DNA of 64,000 nt from Armatimonadota bacterium (GTDB lineage: Bacteria; Sysuimicrobiota; Sysuimicrobiia; Sysuimicrobiales; Humicultoraceae), in assembly GCA_031459715.1 (NCBI GenBank), contig JAVKIA010000013.1, positions 1 through 64,000 of the forward strand. Direction: 5' to 3'. Shown in pieces: positions 740 through 10,569 of the stretch. A program made the translations under genes and the position numbers. The stretch's first letter is position 1. Each line of letters starts with the position of its first letter. The notes under the pieces were generated by a model. The model saw only the letters and a program-made list of their open reading frames with translations, searched no databases and was not told the DNA's origin.

Positions 740-2266
740 TCACGGCGCCGAAGGTCGCTCCACCCACTCCCGGCTGCGCTGCACCGCCCTCCTCCACCCC
801 CGGTAGCCGGCTTCGCGCCGCTCCGTGGACCAGCGGGGCTCGAAGATGCGATCCCCGCGCCAGTTGGCGCGCAGGTCTTCCAGCCCGCCCCAGAACCCCG
901 TGGCCAGCCCCGCCATGTAGGCGGCGCCCAGGGCCGTGGTCTCGCTCACCGTGGGACGCACCACGGGCACCCCCAGGATGTCCGCCTGGAGCTGCATCAG
1001 GAAGTCGTTGCGCACGGCCCCGCCATCTACCTTGAGCGCAGCCAGCTTGAATCCGGCGTCCCGCTCCATAGCCTCCACCACCTCGCGGGTCTGGTAGCAG
1101 ATGGCTTCCAGGGTGGCGCGGACCAGGTGGCGCCGGTCGGTGTAGCGGGTCAGCCCCACGATCACCCCGCGGGCGTACATGTCCCAGTGCGGCGCGAACA
1201 GCCCGGAGAAGGCGGGCACGAAGTAGACGCCCCCGGTATCCTCCACCGACCCAGCAACAGCTTCGCTCTCCGCCGCCGTGGCGATCAGCCCCAGGTTGTC
1301 CCGCAGCCACTGCACCGCAGCCCCGGTGATGGCGATGGACCCCTCCAGGGCGTACGCCCGCTGCCTCCGGCCCAGGCTGTAGGCGGCGGTGGTCAGCAGG
1401 CCGCTCCCCGAGGGGACGATCCGCTGGCCGGTGTTCATCAGCAGGAAGTTGCCGGTACCGTAGGTGTTCTTGGTCTCTCCGGGGTCGTAGCAGGTCTGGC
1501 CGACCAGTGCCGCCTGCTGGTCGCCCAGGTCGCCACAGACCGCCACCTCCCCGCCGGCTGGCCCGTCGGAGCGCGTAGTCCCGTAGAGGTCGCTGGAGGG
1601 CCGGATGGCCGGGAGGCAGCTTCGGGAGATGCCCAGGTAGCGGAGGACTTCGTCGTCCCAGTCCAGGGCGGCCAGGTCCATGAGCATGGTCCGTGAGGCG
1701 TTGGTGCAGTCGGTGACATGCACGCCGCCCTTCGGACCGCCGGTGAGCCACCAGATCAGCCAGGTGTCCACGGTGCCGAACAGCGCCGCCCCGCGCTCCG
1801 CCAGGGTGCGCGCCCCCGGGACGTGCCCCAGGATCCAGGCCAGCTTGGGGCCGGAGAAGTACGTGGCGCTGACCAGGCCGGTGTGCTGCCGCAGGTAGGG
1901 CTCGAAGCCGTCGTCGATGATCCGCTGGCAGATCTCCCGCGTGCGCGTGTCCTGCCAGACGATGGCGTTGCAAAGGGGCGCGCCGCTTCGGCGGTCCCAC
2001 AGCAGCGTGGTCTCCCGCTGGTTGGTGATGCCCAGGCCGCAGAGCTGTGCGGGTCTGACGCCGCCCTGCGCCAGGGCCTGGCGCAGGACCGCACCGGCGT
2101 TCTCCCAGATCTCCAGCGGGTCGTGCTCCACCCAGCCTGGCTGGGGGTAGATCTGCCGGTGCTCGCGGTAGGCGGTGGCCCACACCCGCCCGTCGTGGGT
2201 GAAGAGGATGCAGCGGGTACCGGTCGTCCCCTGATCCAGTGCTGCTGCGTAGCTCTGCTCAGCCAC
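740..2266 (-). CDS. glpK: glycerol kinase
   Basis: Converts glycerol and ATP to G3P in the cytoplasm. The 508-residue protein has the full FGGY kinase layout: phosphate loop DQGTTGTR at 11-18, then [12 protein letters not shown], the AIVWQDTRT segment, [21 protein letters not shown], the YGTGNF adenosine region and the C-terminal [13 protein letters not shown]. The length matches the family. A GTG at 2266 lies 4 bases after AGGAGGT and is the preferred start; another GTG at 2272 overlaps that ribosome site. It is the second gene after glpD with a 50-base gap, so it should share the glpD leader and its GlpP control. No glycerol facilitator gene is in the window. Confidence 0.96.
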
Positions 2267-2316
2267 GTACACCTCCTGGTGCCTGCCTGAACGCGGACGT
2301 CATGCTGCCCCACCCC

Positions 2317-3963
2317 TCAGGCGAGCGCCGCGAGCCCTTCCCGCTCGCGGTACACCGTCGCCTCCCACTGTTCCCACTGGCGGCTGCGTTCGTCAGCACT
2401 CCACCCCAGCTCGGCAGCCATCAGTGCGCTGACCCGGTCCACCACACCTTTCCCGGCGTCTTCGGCCAGCACGCTCAGGCGGGTGCGCAGGAACATTACG
2501 TCGGCTAGCGTCACTGCCATCTCCTGGCGACAGGCGTAGGCCACCTCCGCCGCCAGGACGGGCAGGTCGTCGACCAGGGGGCGCAGCAGGGTGGGCTCTG
2601 CCCCGCCCAGGGCCAGGATCTCCGTCGACGTGCCGCCGTAGGAGCGCAGCAGATGCCGTTGCTGCTCCGCCGCCAGCCCGCTGCCTGCCAGAGCCTGGCG
2701 GGCCTCAGCCAGCCGCTCTGTCCCGGCAAGAGGGAGGGTGGCGGTGCGGCAGGGACGGCCTCCCCCGTCGCGACGTGCCAGCAGGTCCACGGTGTCCTCG
2801 GCCATCTGCCGGTAGGTGGTCAGCTTCCCGCCGATGATGCTCACCAGGCCGCGGGGAGACTCCACGACGGCATGCCGGCGGGAGAGGTCGGCGACGCGCC
2901 CGCCACCTGCTTCCACCAGCGGCCGCAGGCCTGCGCAGGCGCCGACCACATCTGCGCTCTCCACCCGGCGCAGGTACAGCCGGGCGTGGCGCAGGAGGTA
3001 GGCCACCTCCTCCCGGGAGGCCGCCGGCGCCTCCAGCGGTCCTGTGTACGGATCGTCGGTGGTCCCCAGCAGGGCGCGCCCTCCCCAGGGCACCACAAAG
3101 GCGATCCGCCCGTCCTCAGTCTCTGGCAGGATGAGGGCCACCTGGGCGCCGAGGACCTCCCGGCGCAGCACCAGGTGCACGCCCTTGCTGGGCCGGAGGC
3201 GAAAGGAGGGCCGGTCGTCCAGGGCGGCCACCTCCTTCGCCCACACGCCGGTGGCGTTAACCACGTGGCGGGCGCGGACCACCACGCTGCGCCCGGTGAG
3301 CCGGTCCTCGACCACTGCACCAGCCACCCGGCCCCGGTCGTGCAGTAGCGACACCGCACGGGCGTAGTTCACCGTCACGGCACCAAACCGTCGCGCCGTG
3401 GCCAGGACGGCGTGGGTCAGCCGCACGTCGTCGGCCGCAGCGTCGTATAGGAGGAAGGCGGTCTGCAGGCGGTCCGTCCGCAGGGCCGGCACCAGTGCGG
3501 CTGCCTCTGCGGCGGTCAGCCGGCGGTGACGCAGCCGGTCCGCCCGGGCAAGCCGGTCGTAGCCCCACAGGACCAGGCCGACGGCAGGCGCCGTCCAGCC
3601 GCGCAGGGGCGGCGGCAGATGCAGACCGACTGGCCGGGCCATGCGGCTGTACAGAGGCAGCAGGAAGGGCTGCGGCTGGACCAGGTGAGGGGCCAGCTGC
3701 AGCAGGCGCCCTCGTTCGCGCAGCGCCTCCGCCACCAGCCCCAGCTCGGCGCGGGCCAGGTAGCGCAGGCCGCCGTGGACCAGCTTGGTGGAACGGCTGC
3801 TGGTTCCGCTGGCGAAGTCAGCCTGCTCCACCAGCCCGACGCGGTACCCGCGGGTGGCCGCGTCCAGAGCCACCCCCGCGCCGGTGATGCCGCCCCCAAT
3901 CACCAGCACGTCCACTCCGGCAGCGAGCCTGACCAGATGGTCACCGCGAGCGGTGAGGGCCAT
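2317..3963 (-). CDS. glpD: FAD-dependent glycerol-3-phosphate dehydrogenase
   Basis: Oxidises G3P to dihydroxyacetone phosphate at the membrane, passing electrons to quinone. The 548-residue protein starts with a classic FAD fold (VLVIGGGITGAG near 19-30), followed by the family signature SRSTKLVHGGLRYL, a central DAO domain and the GlpD C-terminal domain. The start at ATG 3963 is favoured: the longer frame from 4005 would begin inside the U-tract of the leader terminator and has no ribosome site, while 3963 has GGGAGC about 11 bases upstream. It is first in a glpD-glpK operon and divergent from glpP. Expression is expected to depend on the leader element at 4006-4071. Confidence 0.96.
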   Translation of the reverse strand: MALTARGDHLVRLAAGVDVLVIGGGITGAGVALDAATRGYRVGLVEQADFASGTSSRSTKLVHGGLRYLARAELGLVAEALRERGRLLQLAPHLVQPQPFLLPLYSRMARPVGLHLPPPLRGWTAPAVGLVLWGYDRLARADRLRHRRLTAAEAAALVPALRTDRLQTAFLLYDAAADDVRLTHAVLATARRFGAVTVNYARAVSLLHDRGRVAGAVVEDRLTGRSVVVRARHVVNATGVWAKEVAALDDRPSFRLRPSKGVHLVLRREVLGAQVALILPETEDGRIAFVVPWGGRALLGTTDDPYTGPLEAPAASREEVAYLLRHARLYLRRVESADVVGACAGLRPLVEAGGGRVADLSRRHAVVESPRGLVSIIGGKLTTYRQMAEDTVDLLARRDGGGRPCRTATLPLAGTERLAEARQALAGSGLAAEQQRHLLRSYGGTSTEILALGGAEPTLLRPLVDDLPVLAAEVAYACRQEMAVTLADVMFLRTRLSVLAEDAGKGVVDRVSALMAAELGWSADERSRQWEQWEATVYREREGLAALA

Positions 3964-4005
3964 GGTCTGTGTGCGCTCCCATGCAGGTACCGACCAGGCG
4001 TGCAT

Positions 4006-4071
4006 GAAAAAGCCCTGCCGGCTGGACTGCCTGGCAGCCGGCAGGACTTTCTCCGCAGCTCCATCCTGCCA
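4006..4071 (-). promoter_or_regulatory. GlpP-type antiterminator/terminator leader of glpD-glpK
   Basis: Read on the minus strand, TGGCAGGAT (4071-4063) can pair with GTCCTGCCG (4047-4039), leaving a 15-nt loop GGAGCTGCGGAGAAA. The 3' arm of that hairpin is also the 5' arm of a perfect 11-bp terminator stem CCTGCCGGCTG / CAGCCGGCAGG (4045-4035 with 4024-4014), followed by GCTTTTTC. The two folds exclude each other. The same arrangement precedes both ugpB genes. B. subtilis GlpP is known to relieve termination in the glpD leader; that GlpP binds this loop is inference. Confidence 0.85.
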
Positions 4072-4175: not shown

Positions 4176-4778
4176 GTGACCTCCCCTCAGGATCCCTGGA
4201 GCCCGCTGCGCACCCGCCCGATTATCGCGGCGATTCGCACCGACGCCGTCGTGCCCGCGGCCATGGCCGCGCCGGTGGCGACGGCCTTCCTCCTCACCGG
4301 AAGTGTCGTCTCCCTTCCCGGTTTGGTGGGGCGCCTGGTCCAGTCGGGCAAGCAGGTGCTGGTGCACCTGGACCTCACCGAAGGCCTATCGGCGGACCGC
4401 GCGGCCGTGCAGTTCGTCCGCTCCATCCCCGGGATCGCCGGCATCATCACCACCCGCGGCCACCTCATCCACGCCGCGCGTCAGGAGGGGCTGCTGGCGG
4501 TGCTGCGGGTCTTCATGCTGGATTCAGCCTCCCTGGACACCGCTGCGAAGATGATGCGCTCCTGCGCTCCGGATGCGGTGGAGATCCTGCCCGGCCTGAT
4601 ATACCCGGCGCTCTCCGCCCAAATCCGCACCTGGAACATCCCGGTAATCGCCGGGGGGTTCATCCGCACGCGGGAGGAAGTACAGGCCGTCCTGCGCGCG
4701 GGAGCGCTGGCCATCTCCACCAGCACCCGCAACCTGTGGGCCCTGGATCTGACCGCCGGGAAGGCAGCCCCCGGCTAG
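4176..4778 (+). CDS. glpP: glycerol-3-phosphate responsive antiterminator
   Basis: A 200-residue cytoplasmic TIM-barrel-like RNA-binding regulator. In B. subtilis GlpP binds G3P and the leader mRNA of glp genes to prevent early termination. Family landmarks are present: the PIIAAIRTDA opening, VLVHLDLTEGLSADRAAVQF, GIITTRGHLI, VEILPGLIYP and PVIAGGFIRTREEVQAVL followed by STSTRNLW. The start is a GTG at 4176 with a weak ribosome site. It is transcribed away from glpD, and three candidate target leaders lie within 5 kb (4006-4071, 4899-4965 and 9157-9222). It is the natural regulator of the whole G3P locus. Confidence 0.93.
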   Translation: MTSPQDPWSPLRTRPIIAAIRTDAVVPAAMAAPVATAFLLTGSVVSLPGLVGRLVQSGKQVLVHLDLTEGLSADRAAVQFVRSIPGIAGIITTRGHLIHAARQEGLLAVLRVFMLDSASLDTAAKMMRSCAPDAVEILPGLIYPALSAQIRTWNIPVIAGGFIRTREEVQAVLRAGALAISTSTRNLWALDLTAGKAAPG

Positions 4779-4898: not shown

Positions 4899-4965
4899 TG
4901 GTGGGACAGAGATTCGGAGAGAGTCCTGCCGGCGTGGAGTTGGGCCGGCGGGATTTGTTCTTAAA
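4899..4965 (+). promoter_or_regulatory. GlpP-type antiterminator/terminator leader of ugp operon 1
   Basis: TGGTGGGAC (4899-4907) can pair with GTCCTGCCG (4923-4931) around a 15-nt loop AGAGATTCGGAGAGA. The competing terminator pairs CCTGCCGGC (4925-4933) with GCCGGCGGG (4944-4952), followed by ATTTGTTCTT. Loop and terminator arm match the glpD leader. Just downstream a good ribosome site precedes only a 4-codon reading frame, ATG GCG ATC GCA TGA (4973-4987), before the real ugpB start at 5062; in the second ugp copy the equivalent site starts ugpB itself. Confidence 0.82.
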
Positions 4966-5061
4966 GGGGGTGATGGCGATCGCATGACGGGCGTATGGGG
5001 CGTACGCACGGGCTGGACCTCTCTTGCCACACGCTTGCGACGCAAGAAAGGGGGTGGAACC

Positions 5062-6378
5062 GTGAAGTTGGGGCGTGCAGGACTAATGCTGATGGCGATG
5101 CTGGCACTGCTCTCCGCCGGCGGTGCGGCCTACGCCCAGGGCCCTGTAAAGATTACCCTCTGGCATGCCATGGGCGGGGCGCGATATGAAGCGATCACCA
5201 AGGGTATCGCCGAAGGGTTCAACCGGGCCTATCCCAACTACACGCTGGAGCCTCTCTTTACCGGTAGCTACGCGGAGACGCTGACGAAGGCCATCGCCGC
5301 TATCCGGGCAGGCAATCCGCCGCACATCGTCCAGGTCTATGAGGTGGGAACCCAGACGATGATCGACAGCGGTGCCATCATCCCGGTGACCGACCTCGTC
5401 CCGCCCGGGGAGATCAATTTCGCGGACTATATCGATCCGATCCTCAAGTATTACACCGTGCGAGGGAAACTGTACTCAATGCCGTTCAACTCCTCCACGG
5501 CCATCCTCTATTACAACAAGGATATCTTCCGCAAGGCTGGACTGGATCCAGAGCGACCGCCTCAGACCTTTGACGAGCTGGAGCAGATGGGTCGGCAGAT
5601 CCTGCGCAGTGGTGTGGCGCGCGGTGCCGTCACCTTCGGGTGGCCCGCCTGGATCTTCGAGCAAATGTTTGCCTACCACAACAAGTACTACGCCAACAAC
5701 GAGAACGGCCGAGCGGCGCGTGCGTCAAAGGTCCTCTTCGATCAACCCTTCGGCGTCTATCTGGCTTCTCGCTGGGCGACGTGGGCCAGGGAAGGACTGC
5801 TCGTGTACGGCGGCCGAGAGTACGCGCCCAATCGGGCGTTCCTCGCGGGCGAAGTGGCGATGCTGATGCAGTCGACCTCGCAGGTCAGCACCATCGAGCG
5901 CGGGGCCAAGTTTGCGGTGGGCACGGCCTTCCTACCACGCATTCCCGGACAGCCTCGCGGCAAGTCGGTGATCGGTGGAGCGTCGCTATGGGTGTTGAAA
6001 GGACGCGGGCGTTCCAGGAGCGAACTGGATGCCATCGTGGCCTTCTTCAAGTACCTGAACCAGCCGACCCAGACGGCGCAATGGCACCGCGATACGGGAT
6101 ACTTCCCGGCCACGCAATCTGCGGTCAGGCTGCTGGAGTCCGAGGGCTGGTTTGCCAAGAACCCCAACTTCCTGACTGCATTTAAGCAGATCCAGCTCGG
6201 CCCGGACACCGGAGCGACCCGGGGCGTGTTGCTGGGGAATTTCGTCCAGATCCGCGACATCACCGACACCATGCTGGAGCGAATCTTCAGCGGCCGGATG
6301 ACTCCGGCAGAAGCGGTGCGCCTGGCAGCAGATGAAGCCAACAAGGTGCTGGACGAGTACCTCAAGACCTACAAGTAG
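5062..6378 (+). CDS. ugpB: UgpB-type glycerol-3-phosphate binding protein, copy 1
   Basis: Extracytoplasmic solute-binding protein of a carbohydrate-family ABC importer. The GTG at 5062 follows AAGGGGGTGG and opens a signal peptide (KLGRAGLMLMAMLALL, cleavage near AYAQ). The mature part tracks UgpB closely: ITLWHAMGG, IVQVYEVGTQTM (the conserved Glu), PFNSSTAILYYNKD, the GWPAW tryptophan pair, IIGG-like VIGGASLW, WHRDTGYFPAT and LLGNFVQIR near the end. These segments correspond to G3P or glycerophosphodiester contacts in UgpB. The gene has visibly lower GC than copy 2 (9235). It heads a B-A-E operon behind the GlpP-type leader. The exact ligand could differ from copy 2. Confidence 0.88.
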   Translation: MKLGRAGLMLMAMLALLSAGGAAYAQGPVKITLWHAMGGARYEAITKGIAEGFNRAYPNYTLEPLFTGSYAETLTKAIAAIRAGNPPHIVQVYEVGTQTMIDSGAIIPVTDLVPPGEINFADYIDPILKYYTVRGKLYSMPFNSSTAILYYNKDIFRKAGLDPERPPQTFDELEQMGRQILRSGVARGAVTFGWPAWIFEQMFAYHNKYYANNENGRAARASKVLFDQPFGVYLASRWATWAREGLLVYGGREYAPNRAFLAGEVAMLMQSTSQVSTIERGAKFAVGTAFLPRIPGQPRGKSVIGGASLWVLKGRGRSRSELDAIVAFFKYLNQPTQTAQWHRDTGYFPATQSAVRLLESEGWFAKNPNFLTAFKQIQLGPDTGATRGVLLGNFVQIRDITDTMLERIFSGRMTPAEAVRLAADEANKVLDEYLKTYK

Positions 6379-6434: not shown

Positions 6435-7316
6435 GTGGAAGGGCATTTCCCCGATCGCGGCTTGCCCTATCTGTTGGTGGCGCCGTCTGTGGCTATAGTT
6501 CTAATTTTCCTGCTGATCCCCTCGGGAGAGGCTCTCCTCCAGAGCCTCTCCCGCATCAACCCCTTCACCGGAGCGGGGAGATTCGTAGGCCTGGAGAACT
6601 TCACCAGCCTGCTGGCCTCGGAGGAGTACCGTCACAGCATCCGGGTTAGCGTCCTGTTCACGGCTGGCACGGTGCTGCTCAGCCTGAGCGCGTCACTGGC
6701 CATGGCGGCGCTGGTGAACCGGAGCCTGCGGGGAATTGGCATCTACCGGACAGCCCTCATCTGGCCGTATGCACTCTCCCCTGCCGTGGCTGGAACCATC
6801 TGGGCACTGCTCTTTGAGCCCTCCACGGGCCTCATCACTTTCGCGCTGCGCGAGATGACGGGCGCAGCGCCCAACTGGATGATGAGCGGTAGCCTGGCCC
6901 TCCTGGTCGTTATCCTGGCGGCGGCCTGGAAACTCCTCGGCTACAACATCATGTTCTTCTTGGCCGGCCTGCAGGCGGTGCCGGAAGAGCTGGCGGAGGC
7001 GGCCGCGGTTGATGGCGCCTCAGCCTGGCACCGCTTCTGGGCGGTGACATTTCCCTTGCTGTCGCCGGTGACATTCTTCCTGCTCATCACTAACTCCCTG
7101 TATGCCTTCTTTGAAGTCTTCGGGCTGATCGACGTGTTGACACAGGGCGGGCCGGCCCGTGCCACCGACGTCCTGGTGTACAAGCTCTACCGGGATGGGT
7201 TCGTCAGTATCAACTGGGGTCAGGCTTCAGCACAGTCGGTGCTCCTCTTTGTCCTGGTGGCTGCGCTCACTGTGCTCCAGTTCCGCTACGCCGGGCGGAG
7301 GGTCTTCTACACGTGA
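6435..7316 (+). CDS. ugpA: UgpA-type ABC permease, copy 1
   Basis: Inner-membrane permease of 293 residues with six predicted helices, beginning PYLLVAPSVAIVLIFLLIP. The cytoplasmic EAA loop (ELAEAAAVDGASAWHRFW) that docks the ATPase is intact. It starts with GTG at 6435 behind GGTGAG, 56 bases after ugpB. The pair partner ugpE follows with a GTGA overlap, so the two permease halves should be made together. No UgpC/MsmK-type ATPase gene lies in either ugp operon; the importer must use an ATPase encoded elsewhere, as several carbohydrate importers do. Confidence 0.9.
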   Translation: MEGHFPDRGLPYLLVAPSVAIVLIFLLIPSGEALLQSLSRINPFTGAGRFVGLENFTSLLASEEYRHSIRVSVLFTAGTVLLSLSASLAMAALVNRSLRGIGIYRTALIWPYALSPAVAGTIWALLFEPSTGLITFALREMTGAAPNWMMSGSLALLVVILAAAWKLLGYNIMFFLAGLQAVPEELAEAAAVDGASAWHRFWAVTFPLLSPVTFFLLITNSLYAFFEVFGLIDVLTQGGPARATDVLVYKLYRDGFVSINWGQASAQSVLLFVLVAALTVLQFRYAGRRVFYT

Positions 7317-8209
7317 GTGCAGTGGGAGACAAGGTGGCTACAGGTGCTCTGCCCCTGCGGAGAGCTGCTTACCACCCGCTGCGGCTCCTTCGGGTCGCAC
7401 GCCTGATCCTGCTGCACTTGCTGCTCATCATAGCGGCACTGGTTGTCATCTTCCCTGTTTACTACGCTATCGTGGTCAGTACCCATACCTTTCAGGAAGT
7501 GTTCAGCTACCCGCCGAAACTGCTTCCGGGGGATGCGCTGCTGGCGAACTACGCCGCCGCGTGGCGGAAAGTGGGCATGGGCAGGCTGCTTCTGAACAGC
7601 ACCGGCATTTCGCTCCTCGTCCCCCTGGGGAAGATCGTGTTTTCCGTGCTCGCGGCGTTTGCCTTCACCTATTTCCGCGGCTTTCGGGCCAGGGGCTTCT
7701 TCTTCGTGCTTATCCTGATCACCCACATGCTGCCCCTGCCGGTGCGCATCGTCCCTACCTACCAGCTCATGCAGCGACTGGGCTGGATCAACACCTATAC
7801 CGCCCTCACCGTCCCATTCTTCGCCAGCGCCACCGGCACCCTCCTATTTCGTCAGTTCTTCCTGACCGTTCCGGCCTCGCTGTCAGAGGCGGCACGCATT
7901 GATGGGGCTGGGCCGCTTCGCTTCCTGCTGCAGATCCTGCTGCCACTTTCCCGCAACAACCTGGCCGCGCTCTTCATGGTGGAGTTTGTGTACATGTGGA
8001 ACCAGTACCTGTGGCCTCTCATCGTCACCACTTCCCACGAGATGCGGGTGGTGCAGATTGGCATCAAGATGCTGGTGGCCACGGACGCCCAGGCGGAATG
8101 GAACGTGATCATGGCTGGCGTCATGATGGCCATGCTTCCCCCGCTGGTGGTGCTGCTGCTCCTGCAACGAAGCTTCGTGCAGAGTATCAGTCTGGGGCAG
8201 GAGAAGTAG
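7313..8209 (+). CDS. ugpE: UgpE-type ABC permease, copy 1
   Basis: Second inner-membrane permease, 298 residues, six helices. A cytoplasmic basic N-terminus leads into LILLHLLLIIAALVVIFPVYYAI; the EAA loop is SLSEAARIDGAGPLRFLLQI and the conserved WNQYLWPL segment is present, typical of MalG/UgpE proteins. The GTG at 7313 overlaps the ugpA stop, showing translational coupling. The gene ends 6 bases from the convergent HAD phosphatase, leaving no room for a classical terminator between them. Confidence 0.9.
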   Translation: MSAVGDKVATGALPLRRAAYHPLRLLRVARLILLHLLLIIAALVVIFPVYYAIVVSTHTFQEVFSYPPKLLPGDALLANYAAAWRKVGMGRLLLNSTGISLLVPLGKIVFSVLAAFAFTYFRGFRARGFFFVLILITHMLPLPVRIVPTYQLMQRLGWINTYTALTVPFFASATGTLLFRQFFLTVPASLSEAARIDGAGPLRFLLQILLPLSRNNLAALFMVEFVYMWNQYLWPLIVTTSHEMRVVQIGIKMLVATDAQAEWNVIMAGVMMAMLPPLVVLLLLQRSFVQSISLGQEK

Positions 8210-8215
8210 GTCGCC

Positions 8216-9022
8216 CTAGGGGGATGCCGGGAGCACCTGAGAGACGCATTCAAGGATGTAGTCCGGTCGCGGCTGTGCCGCCAGCGCGGCCTCGCGGGTG
8301 GTGACCCCCGTCAGCACCACCGCTGTGGCCATGCCCACGGCCAGGCCCAGGGCATGATCGGTCTCCAGGCGGTCTCCCACCAGCAGGGAGTCGGCAGGCG
8401 CGGTGCCCAGACGCTGCAGAAGGACACGCCCCATGATTGGTGATGGCTTGCCCACCACGGTCTCCACCTGCCGTCCGCTGCTGGCTTCAAGCGCTGCAAT
8501 GACCGCGCCACAGTCGGGGAGGCCTCCGTCCGGTGTGGGGCAGTAGGCATCCTGGTTAGTGGCGATGAAGCGAGCTCCGGCGCGCAGCGCGTCAAAACCG
8601 ATCTTCAGCTTGCGGTAGTCGAAGGTTCGGTCGAAGGAGGCGACTACGTAGTCCACCCGGTGGGGATCCTCTGTCAGGCTGAAGCCCGCCGCGCGCAACT
8701 CCCTTTTCACCGACTCTTCGCCTATGACGAAAAGAGACGCGCCAGGGGCGGTGGCTAGCAGGTAGTGCACCAGCACCAGCGAGGAGTTTATCACGTCATC
8801 GGGCGGCGTGGGGATTCCCAGGCGGGTCAACTTGTCCGCATACTCCGAGCGTGTCCGCAGCGGGTTGTTGGAGAGAAAGGCGACGCGCGCGCCGGCTTGG
8901 CGAAGCGCTGCCACGGTCTCCGCAGCTCCCGGCAACAGCGTGTCGCCCAGGTAGATGGTGCCGTCGAGGTCGAAGGCGTATCCTGAGTACAGACGGGCCG
9001 GCCGCAGTGGTGGTCTTCCCAT
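8216..9022 (-). CDS. HAD-IIA family phosphatase (NagD/AraL-like)
   Basis: A 268-residue cytoplasmic phosphatase. HAD motif I is FDLDGT with the nucleophile Asp (about residue 18), motif II LSNN near 51, motif III the Lys of VGKPSP, and motif IV GDRLETD. The cap is the C2 type seen in NagD, AraL and glycerol-phosphate phosphatases. Its position between two G3P importers suggests it dephosphorylates G3P or a related phosphate as overflow protection, as some mycobacterial and eukaryotic HAD-IIA enzymes do; the substrate is inference. It has its own 5' region shared with the divergent second ugp promoter and carries no GlpP-type element. Confidence 0.85.
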   Translation of the reverse strand: MGRPPLRPARLYSGYAFDLDGTIYLGDTLLPGAAETVAALRQAGARVAFLSNNPLRTRSEYADKLTRLGIPTPPDDVINSSLVLVHYLLATAPGASLFVIGEESVKRELRAAGFSLTEDPHRVDYVVASFDRTFDYRKLKIGFDALRAGARFIATNQDAYCPTPDGGLPDCGAVIAALEASSGRQVETVVGKPSPIMGRVLLQRLGTAPADSLLVGDRLETDHALGLAVGMATAVVLTGVTTREAALAAQPRPDYILECVSQVLPASP

Positions 9023-9105
9023 ATCAGTTACCTATCGCGCCAGGGCGCGCAGAGTTCAAGTTCCTTCCGCCGATGACGGGTTCCTGTCTACGCCTCTGAG
9101 GCTAC

Positions 9106-9134
9106 TGGTCACACCCCGCTTCCCGTGGTATAAG
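9106..9134 (+). promoter_or_regulatory. promoter of ugp operon 2
   Basis: TGGTCA (9106-9111, 4/6 match to the -35 consensus) and TATAAG (9129-9134, 5/6) are 17 bases apart, and TG one base before the -10 makes it an extended type. Transcription would begin near 9141, placing the whole antiterminator element in the 5' leader. Confidence 0.7.
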
Positions 9135-9156
9135 AGACATGGACAATTTGTGGCTG

Positions 9157-9222
9157 TGGTGGGACGGAGATTCGGAGAGAGTCCTGCCGGTGCAGCAGGG
9201 GGGCCCGGCGGGATTTTCTCTT
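9157..9222 (+). promoter_or_regulatory. GlpP-type antiterminator/terminator leader of ugp operon 2
   Basis: TGGTGGGAC (9157-9165) pairs with GTCCTGCCG (9181-9189) around the 15-nt loop GGAGATTCGGAGAGA. The terminator pairs CCTGCCGG (9183-9190) with CCGGCGGG (9205-9212) and is followed by ATTTTCTCTTT. From about 9140 to 9190 the leader is almost identical to the one at 4883-4932, whereas the genes behind them are only paralogous, showing selection on the RNA. The ugpB ribosome site follows about 10 bases later. Confidence 0.85.
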
Positions 9223-9234
9223 TGACGGGGGTGG

Positions 9235-10569
9235 ATGATGAAGGTCCGATGGGTAACTGCCGTATGCCTGACGGCGCTGCTGGCACTGGCCTCGCCGCCC
9301 GTGTACGCCCAGCGCGTCACTATCGAGTTCTGGCACGCCATGCGCGGCCCGCTGGGTGAGTCCCTGGAGGGGATCGCCTCCCGGTTCAACGCCGCGCAGA
9401 CCCGGTTCCGGGTCAACCCCACGTTCAAGGGGTCGTATCCGGAGACCATGGTGGCGGCCATCGCCGCGTTCCGCGCGGGCAATGCACCGCACATCGTGCA
9501 GATGTTCGAGGTCGGTACCGCCACCATGATGGCCGCCGGTCCGGCCATCAAGCCCGTCTACCAGCTCTTCAAGGAGGCGGGCCTGCCGTTTGACCCTACC
9601 ATCTACCTGCCGGCCGTCCGCGGGTACTACAGCGACGCCGCCGGTCGCATGGTGGCCATGCCCTTCAACAGCTCCACCCCGGTCCTCTGGTACAACAAGG
9701 ACGCCTTCCGCAAGGCCGGGCTGGACCCCAACGTCCCACCGCAGACCTGGGCTCAGGTGCGGGCGGCGGCGCAGCGCATCCGTGCGGCCAATGCCGCTCC
9801 CTGCGGCCTCTCCACGGCCTGGCCGACCTGGGTGCAGTTTGAGAACTTCGGCGCTATCCACGACGTGCCGTTTGCCACCAGGGCCAACGGCTTCGAGGGC
9901 TTCGACGCCGAGCTGACCATCAACGGTCCCCTCTACGTACGCCACCTGCAGTTCCTGGTGGACATGCTCAAAGAGGGCTCGTTCAAGTACGGCGGGCGGG
10001 ATGCGGCCGGCGATTCCCTCTTCCCGTCCGGGGAGTGCGCCATGCTCACCGCCTCTTCGGCGCTGTTTGGGCGGATTTCCCGCGAGGCCAAGTTCGACTG
10101 GGGGATCACCTTCCTCCCCTACTACGACGACGTCAAGGGCGCGCCCAAGAACTCCATCATCGGCGGCGCGGCCTTCTGGGTGATGACCTCGCCGCGGCGG
10201 ACGGCTGACGAGTACCGCGGGGTGGCCGAGTTCTTCCGGTTCCTGAGCTCCTCGGAGGAGACGGCCAAGTGGCACCAGGAGACCGGTTACGTGCCCATCA
10301 CCTACACGGGGATGCAGCTGGCCATGGCCACCGGCTACTACCAGCGGTTCCCCTGGGCGGAGTTGCCCATCAAGCAGCTCACCCGTACCCCACCCACCAA
10401 GAACTCCAAGGGGCTGCGCCTGGGGAACATGCCGGAGATCCGGGTGGTCATCTACGAGGAGGTGGAGAAGGCGTTCCAGGGGCAGCAGACTGCCAGGCAG
10501 GCGCTGGACAACGCGGTGCGCCGCGGCAACGAGATCCTGCGCCGCTTCCAGCAAACGGTGGGACAGTGA
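9235..10569 (+). CDS. ugpB: UgpB-type glycerol-3-phosphate binding protein, copy 2
   Basis: Secreted or lipid-free solute-binding protein, 444 residues, with a signal peptide ending PPVYAQ. It is closer to E. coli UgpB than copy 1: EFWHAMRGPLGESLEGIASR, QMFEVGTATMMAA, YYSDAAGRMVAMPFNSSTP, LWYNKDAFRKAGLDP, the AWPTW tryptophan pair, CAMLTASSA, KWHQETGYVPIT and LRLGNMPEIRVV near the C-terminus. ATG codons at 9235 and 9238 both fit the GGGGGTGG ribosome site; 9238 has better spacing. It leads a B-A-E-Q operon under the GlpP-type leader. Confidence 0.94.
   Translation: MMKVRWVTAVCLTALLALASPPVYAQRVTIEFWHAMRGPLGESLEGIASRFNAAQTRFRVNPTFKGSYPETMVAAIAAFRAGNAPHIVQMFEVGTATMMAAGPAIKPVYQLFKEAGLPFDPTIYLPAVRGYYSDAAGRMVAMPFNSSTPVLWYNKDAFRKAGLDPNVPPQTWAQVRAAAQRIRAANAAPCGLSTAWPTWVQFENFGAIHDVPFATRANGFEGFDAELTINGPLYVRHLQFLVDMLKEGSFKYGGRDAAGDSLFPSGECAMLTASSALFGRISREAKFDWGITFLPYYDDVKGAPKNSIIGGAAFWVMTSPRRTADEYRGVAEFFRFLSSSEETAKWHQETGYVPITYTGMQLAMATGYYQRFPWAELPIKQLTRTPPTKNSKGLRLGNMPEIRVVIYEEVEKAFQGQQTARQALDNAVRRGNEILRRFQQTVGQ

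Follow-up and report, generated by a model that had tools for sequence, protein, structure and literature searches.

A short hairpin recurs in the leaders of three glycerol-3-phosphate genes in the window (the whole stretch of 64,000 nucleotides of bacterial DNA that was analysed), in each case overlapping an intrinsic terminator. The question raised by this arrangement is whether the hairpin is a functional RNA fold and, if so, how it might control the genes that lie downstream.

Leaders and genes in the window

The features involved, in order of position, are the following.

740..2272, minus strand: glpK, glycerol kinase, downstream of glpD (TIGR01311, 708 bits, cut-off 590)
2317..4005, minus strand: glpD, glycerol-3-phosphate dehydrogenase (domains DAO and DAO_C)
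4007..4049, minus strand: intrinsic terminator of the glpD leader (U run 4011-4007), whose 5' arm includes the 3' arm of the hairpin
4039..4071, minus strand: putative antiterminator hairpin of the glpD leader, with the 5' arm at 4071-4063 (TGGCAGGAT), the 15-nt loop at 4062-4048 (ggagctgcggagaaa), and the 3' arm at 4047-4039 (GTCCTGCCG)
4176..4778, plus strand: glpP, glycerol-3-phosphate-responsive antiterminator protein (PF04309, E 2.9e-55)
4899..4931, plus strand: putative antiterminator hairpin of the first ugpB-type leader (TGGTGGGAC-agagattcggagaga-GTCCTGCCG)
4921..4962, plus strand: intrinsic terminator of the first ugpB-type leader, from folding, with a U-rich tail
4984..6378, plus strand: ugpB-like substrate-binding protein (UgpB model, 321 bits, under the cut-off of 411)
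6435-7316 and 7313-8209, plus strand: ugpA-like and ugpE-like permeases (both under the equivalog cut-offs)
9157..9189, plus strand: putative antiterminator hairpin of the second ugpB leader, ugpB2 (TGGTGGGAC-ggagattcggagaga-GTCCTGCCG)
9174..9221, plus strand: intrinsic terminator of the second ugpB leader, from folding
9235..10569, plus strand: ugpB, sn-glycerol-3-phosphate-binding protein (NF008211, 548.7 bits, cut-off 411)

The GlpP protein matches two solved relatives, 3kts (E 2e-30), a Listeria protein, and 1vkf (E 4e-20), and its gene is the single PF04309 gene found in the genome; a search for viral relatives of GlpP found none. Roughly 100 nt separate the start of glpP from the hairpin in the glpD leader, which is divergent from this gene, and the two plus-strand leaders stand before the ugpB-like gene, with its ugpA-like and ugpE-like permeases, and before the second ugpB. 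The top NCBIfam model for glpD is also glycerol-3-phosphate dehydrogenase, at 316 bits, under the cut-off of 360. The true start of this gene is more likely the ATG at 3963, behind GGGAG, than the first in-frame start codon, and that of the first ugpB-like gene is more likely the GTG at 5062 than the first in-frame start, given the signal-peptide-like N terminus and the good ribosome-binding sequence. A consensus search for the promoters of the three leaders found none.

The original prediction described nine pairs and a 15-nt loop in all three leaders, and both its sequences and its coordinates are correct: standard pairs occupy all nine stem positions, and the loop has 15 nt, in each hairpin. 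With up to three mismatches allowed, the pattern occurs three times in the window, against an expectation of 0.25, and that many sites were obtained in none of 100 shuffles; the mismatch-free pattern of stem and spacing is restricted to these three sites in the whole 2.76-Mb genome. Folded alone, the glpD hairpin reaches -15.9 kcal/mol, a stability found in 0 of 200 shuffles. The second ugpB hairpin reaches -12.4 kcal/mol, and the first -11.6 kcal/mol in a slightly different fold, the nine-pair stem being its centroid, at -11.1 kcal/mol.

Between glpD and ugpB2, the 5' arm differs at three of its nine positions, the loop at three of 15, and the 3' arm at none of nine. With almost the same sequence in both ugp leaders, they provide one independent comparison with glpD, rather than two. 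All nine pairs are indeed kept through these differences, in glpD and both ugp leaders, as had been noted, but to call this strong evidence for a functional fold was an overstatement, as the three changes are confined to the 5' arm, and none is compensatory. Under uniform substitution, the probability of pairing being kept by chance is 1/3 per change, or 1/27 for three, and rises above 1/27 if transitions are favoured; all three changes are transitions. When two leaders of the same order (L018 and L021) are included, the five leaders of the lineage show 100% pairing, with three pairs varying on one side only and no two-sided change, which means that the lineage alone contains no covariation.

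Three one-sided changes, with a chance of about 1/27 or better, and the absence of two-sided changes from the lineage would both be compatible with a 5' arm that is a mere partial copy of the 3' arm of the terminator, forming a functionless hairpin in genes regulated at the level of the promoter. The covariation found in the wider family, and the conservation of the loop, both described below, argue against this interpretation, which we regard as very improbable.

Exclusive folds and the proposed antitermination

In each leader of the window, GTCCTGCCG closes the hairpin as its 3' arm and opens the terminator, which ends in a U-rich run, as its 5' arm. This double role accounts for the constancy of the arm in the window, and makes the two folds mutually exclusive. 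The minimum-energy fold of the whole leaders is the terminator, not the hairpin. In all 55 of the leaders scored, the terminator is the more stable of the two structures, and the minimum-energy fold draws the 3' arm of the hairpin into it. The second GGAGA of the loop also lies within the terminator stem in most of the Bacillota leaders.

The three hairpins are very probably GlpP-dependent antiterminators, with termination as the default, and readthrough where GlpP, together with glycerol-3-phosphate, holds the hairpin by its loop. When no inducer is present, the leader RNA would adopt the stronger terminator, and transcription would end before glpD (and glpK) or the ugp genes. In the presence of glycerol-3-phosphate, GlpP would bind the nascent hairpin, mainly through the GGAGA-N3-GGAGA loop, and hold its short stem, which would prevent the common arm, GTCCTGCC, from pairing into the terminator, and allow the RNA polymerase to read on. 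The exclusive folds, the stabler terminator, the conserved loop, the covariation of the wider family, the adjoining glpP, and the co-occurrence of this gene with the element are all computed, and we infer the binding of the loop by GlpP, the role of glycerol-3-phosphate as the signal in this genome, and the kinetic sequence of the steps.

The model for this mechanism is the known GlpP system of Bacillus subtilis (PMC9604022, PMC7430163), in which GlpP and glycerol-3-phosphate activate glpD, glpFK, and glpTQ through the disruption of a leader terminator, and the glpD 5' UTR confers GlpP control on other promoters (PMC9604022). The leaders of the window share with these B. subtilis leaders a nearby gene of the GlpP family, a leader terminator, and glycerol-3-phosphate genes as targets. 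They differ from the GlpP leaders of the Bacillota in that their lineage belongs to another phylum, and their targets include the ugpB transporters. The stems of the lineage have 8-9 pairs, compared with mostly 3-5 in the Bacillota loci examined, and two extra nucleotides separate the loop core from the 3' arm, relative to the Bacillota leaders.

The LicT, SacY, and BglG systems also involve a hairpin that is stabilised by a protein and overlaps a terminator, but the protein is unrelated, given that GlpP belongs to PF04309, and no PRD domains were found. The RNA site of these systems is likewise unrelated to the GlpP-type site. The ANTAR, HutP, and TRAP systems are similar in their repeated short leader sites and the protein-mediated choice of fold, and differ in their protein families and the arrangement of the repeats.

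Covariation and the conserved loop in the wider family

The original prediction named a lack of covariation in an enlarged alignment among the grounds for its rejection; covariation was looked for, and is present in the wide family. GlpP loci were collected through the protein, not the RNA, and 51 leaders were chosen by their loop core, T run, and upstream position, with pairing disregarded. This set comprises 38 leaders of glpD, five of glpF, five of glpP (one of which, L036, looks spurious), and three of ugpB. In the Bacillota, the same element is found before glpD, glpF, and glpP with different arms (GGTT/AACC, TGTGT/ACACA, and TATTCAT/ATGAATA), and bacilli such as Alkalicoccus (L070) have one leader before glpF and another before glpD.

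Pairing is stronger with a leader's own 3' flank than with swapped flanks, both in the 51 leaders (9.67 vs. 7.88, z 6.2; 0 of 20,000 permutations) and in the 16 with unique flanks (9.88 vs. 5.73, z 4.9; 0 of 20,000), and the same test of the eight unique leaders from Bacillota that do not belong to the GGTT/GGTC class gave 75 of 20,000 permutations, these figures, like those of the shuffles that follow, being indicative, rather than exact probabilities, because relatedness remains in both nulls. In alignment A3, in the GGTT/AACC register, two-sided changes occur at all four pairs. They fill 16 cells, compared with 6.6 +/- 2.2 in the shuffled alignments (0/500 shuffles), and the covariation is 0.252, compared with 0.143 +/- 0.026 (0/500 shuffles). 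As a functional glp (GlpP) antiterminator, the hairpin is well supported, although the three copies from which this role was proposed did not themselves show it. The matches of another model, R1, in the Bacillota were driven by the loop and the flanking sequence, not the stem, and most of its weak matches in relatives are unlike leaders, with no terminator downstream.

The most conserved part of the element, which had been overlooked, is the GGAGA-N3-GGAGA loop, which is nearly invariant across lineages whose arms are wholly different. This loop is likely the recognition site of GlpP. The length of exactly 15 nt is not general, given that loops of 13 nt occur in many of the relatives, among them L021, from the order of the window. 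The stems also vary, from 9 bp and about -12 to -16 kcal/mol in the window to mostly 3-5 bp and 0 to -7 kcal/mol in the Bacillota.

It is conceivable that GlpP binds the single-stranded GGAGA-N3-GGAGA, and occupies the left side of the terminator, with the pairing of the 5' arm being incidental. The pre-eminent conservation of the loop, the weakness of most Bacillota stems on their own (about -1 to -5 kcal/mol), and the position of the second GGAGA inside the terminator stem are all consistent with such an arrangement, whereas the covariation of the arms across genes and genera would not result from selection on the loop alone, and we consider this alternative improbable. A point against the preferred explanation is that the stronger stems of the window may need GlpP less than those of the Bacillota. 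The longer, stronger stems of the lineage could fit an organism that is thermophilic or rich in G+C.

The loop core of ugpB2, GGAGATTCGGAGA, is identical in several Paenibacillus glpD leaders (L027, L045, L053, L065, and L066). A hold-out model based only on the Bacillota (R2) had one match in the window, at the ugpB2 leader, which was not significant (E 1.6), because the arms and the upstream sequence differ from those of the Bacillota; a search of the whole genome with this model found no match. The link between the phyla would thus rest jointly on the identity of the loop, its position, and the gene context.

Two further sequence features were observed. A second form of the loop, GAGAGAC..GAGAGGA, with arms of the CGGG/CCCG type, precedes genes for substrate-binding proteins in family f4 of the order to which the window belongs, at L015 1381-1422 and near 10.4 and 13.6 kb in L132. 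Many Bacillota leaders, such as that at L027 12097-12137, share the motif GTTAATA or GTTCATA, which lies upstream of the hairpin by a few bases, and is probably close to the start of transcription.

Co-occurrence with GlpP and further leaders

In a sample of 201 genomes from the order of Paenibacillus sp. J5C2022, with a threshold of E 1e-3 for the element, the element was found in 58, all of which have GlpP, compared with 158 of the 201 overall (P 5e-8, by a statistic that ignores kinship). Against the preferred explanation, a further 100 GlpP-positive genomes of this sample had no element match at the same threshold, and no match was found at the GlpP loci of Listeria. GlpP is sparse in the phylum of the window (8 of 43 genomes), where the recognised leaders with both hairpin and terminator are all in GlpP-bearing genomes, which is where the search mostly looked.

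The position in a leader, the two exclusive folds, and the conserved loop would also be features of a riboswitch that senses a metabolite directly, with no protein. In such a case, however, a loop of 13-15 nt on a short stem would represent a very small aptamer, and glpP accompanies the element in 58 of 58 genomes. In addition, no family of Rfam release 15 scores above its gathering threshold in the window, and the only match at three Bacillota loci (L084, L027, and L070) is an unrelated sRNA, Bacillaceae-1. A riboswitch is thus scarcely plausible here. In L084, recorded as Bacillus subtilis DE0224, the Bacillaceae-1 RNA lies between glpD and glpP. The gene order of this record differs from that of B. 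subtilis 168, and its family is represented by only 35 genomes; the record may be mislabelled, and was not taken to stand for the laboratory strain.

Leaders of this type were also observed before other genes. In another genome from the order of the window (G011, L129), a leader with the hairpin and a terminator-like stem, divergent from glpP (approximately 9820-9870, minus strand), precedes a GH31 glycosidase gene (7259-9922, minus strand) in place of glpD; this gene possibly encodes a glycerol-glycoside hydrolase of the GlpP regulon. In one Cohnella and one Paenibacillus genome, the element and a terminator are found before large alpha/beta-hydrolase-like proteins (L166 328-368 and L094 7458-7498). 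Other leaders precede a substrate-binding protein in one Paenibacillaceae genome (L173, near 3180-3219, minus strand), an MFS transporter (L175 343-382), and an MgtC-like gene with a glycerophosphodiesterase-like gene downstream of it (L182 313-354).

Antitermination by GlpP is already known, and very probably operates here in a lineage whose stems are longer and whose targets include ugp genes. The literature on GlpP and ugpB, going by titles and abstracts, contains no apparent report of such regulation. As far as the literature examined and Rfam show, the lineage, the ugp targets, and the consensus RNA element are new, and part of the consensus may already have been published in the original work on the B. 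subtilis leaders.

On balance, we favour the view that the GGAGA-N3-GGAGA hairpin is a general, uncatalogued element of the GlpP family, common to the Bacillota and the candidate lineage, and placed before further genes, such as those of an MFS transporter and the ugp ABC transporters, and perhaps those of the GH31 glycosidase and the alpha/beta hydrolases. Rfam has no family for the RNA target of GlpP, an antiterminator that binds RNA in response to a metabolite, and the consensus, in which the loop is fixed and the stem covaries, represents a testable recognition site for this protein. If this view is true, the GlpP regulon would extend to ugp transporters outside the Bacillota, and the leader would assign unknown genes to glycerol-phosphate metabolism.
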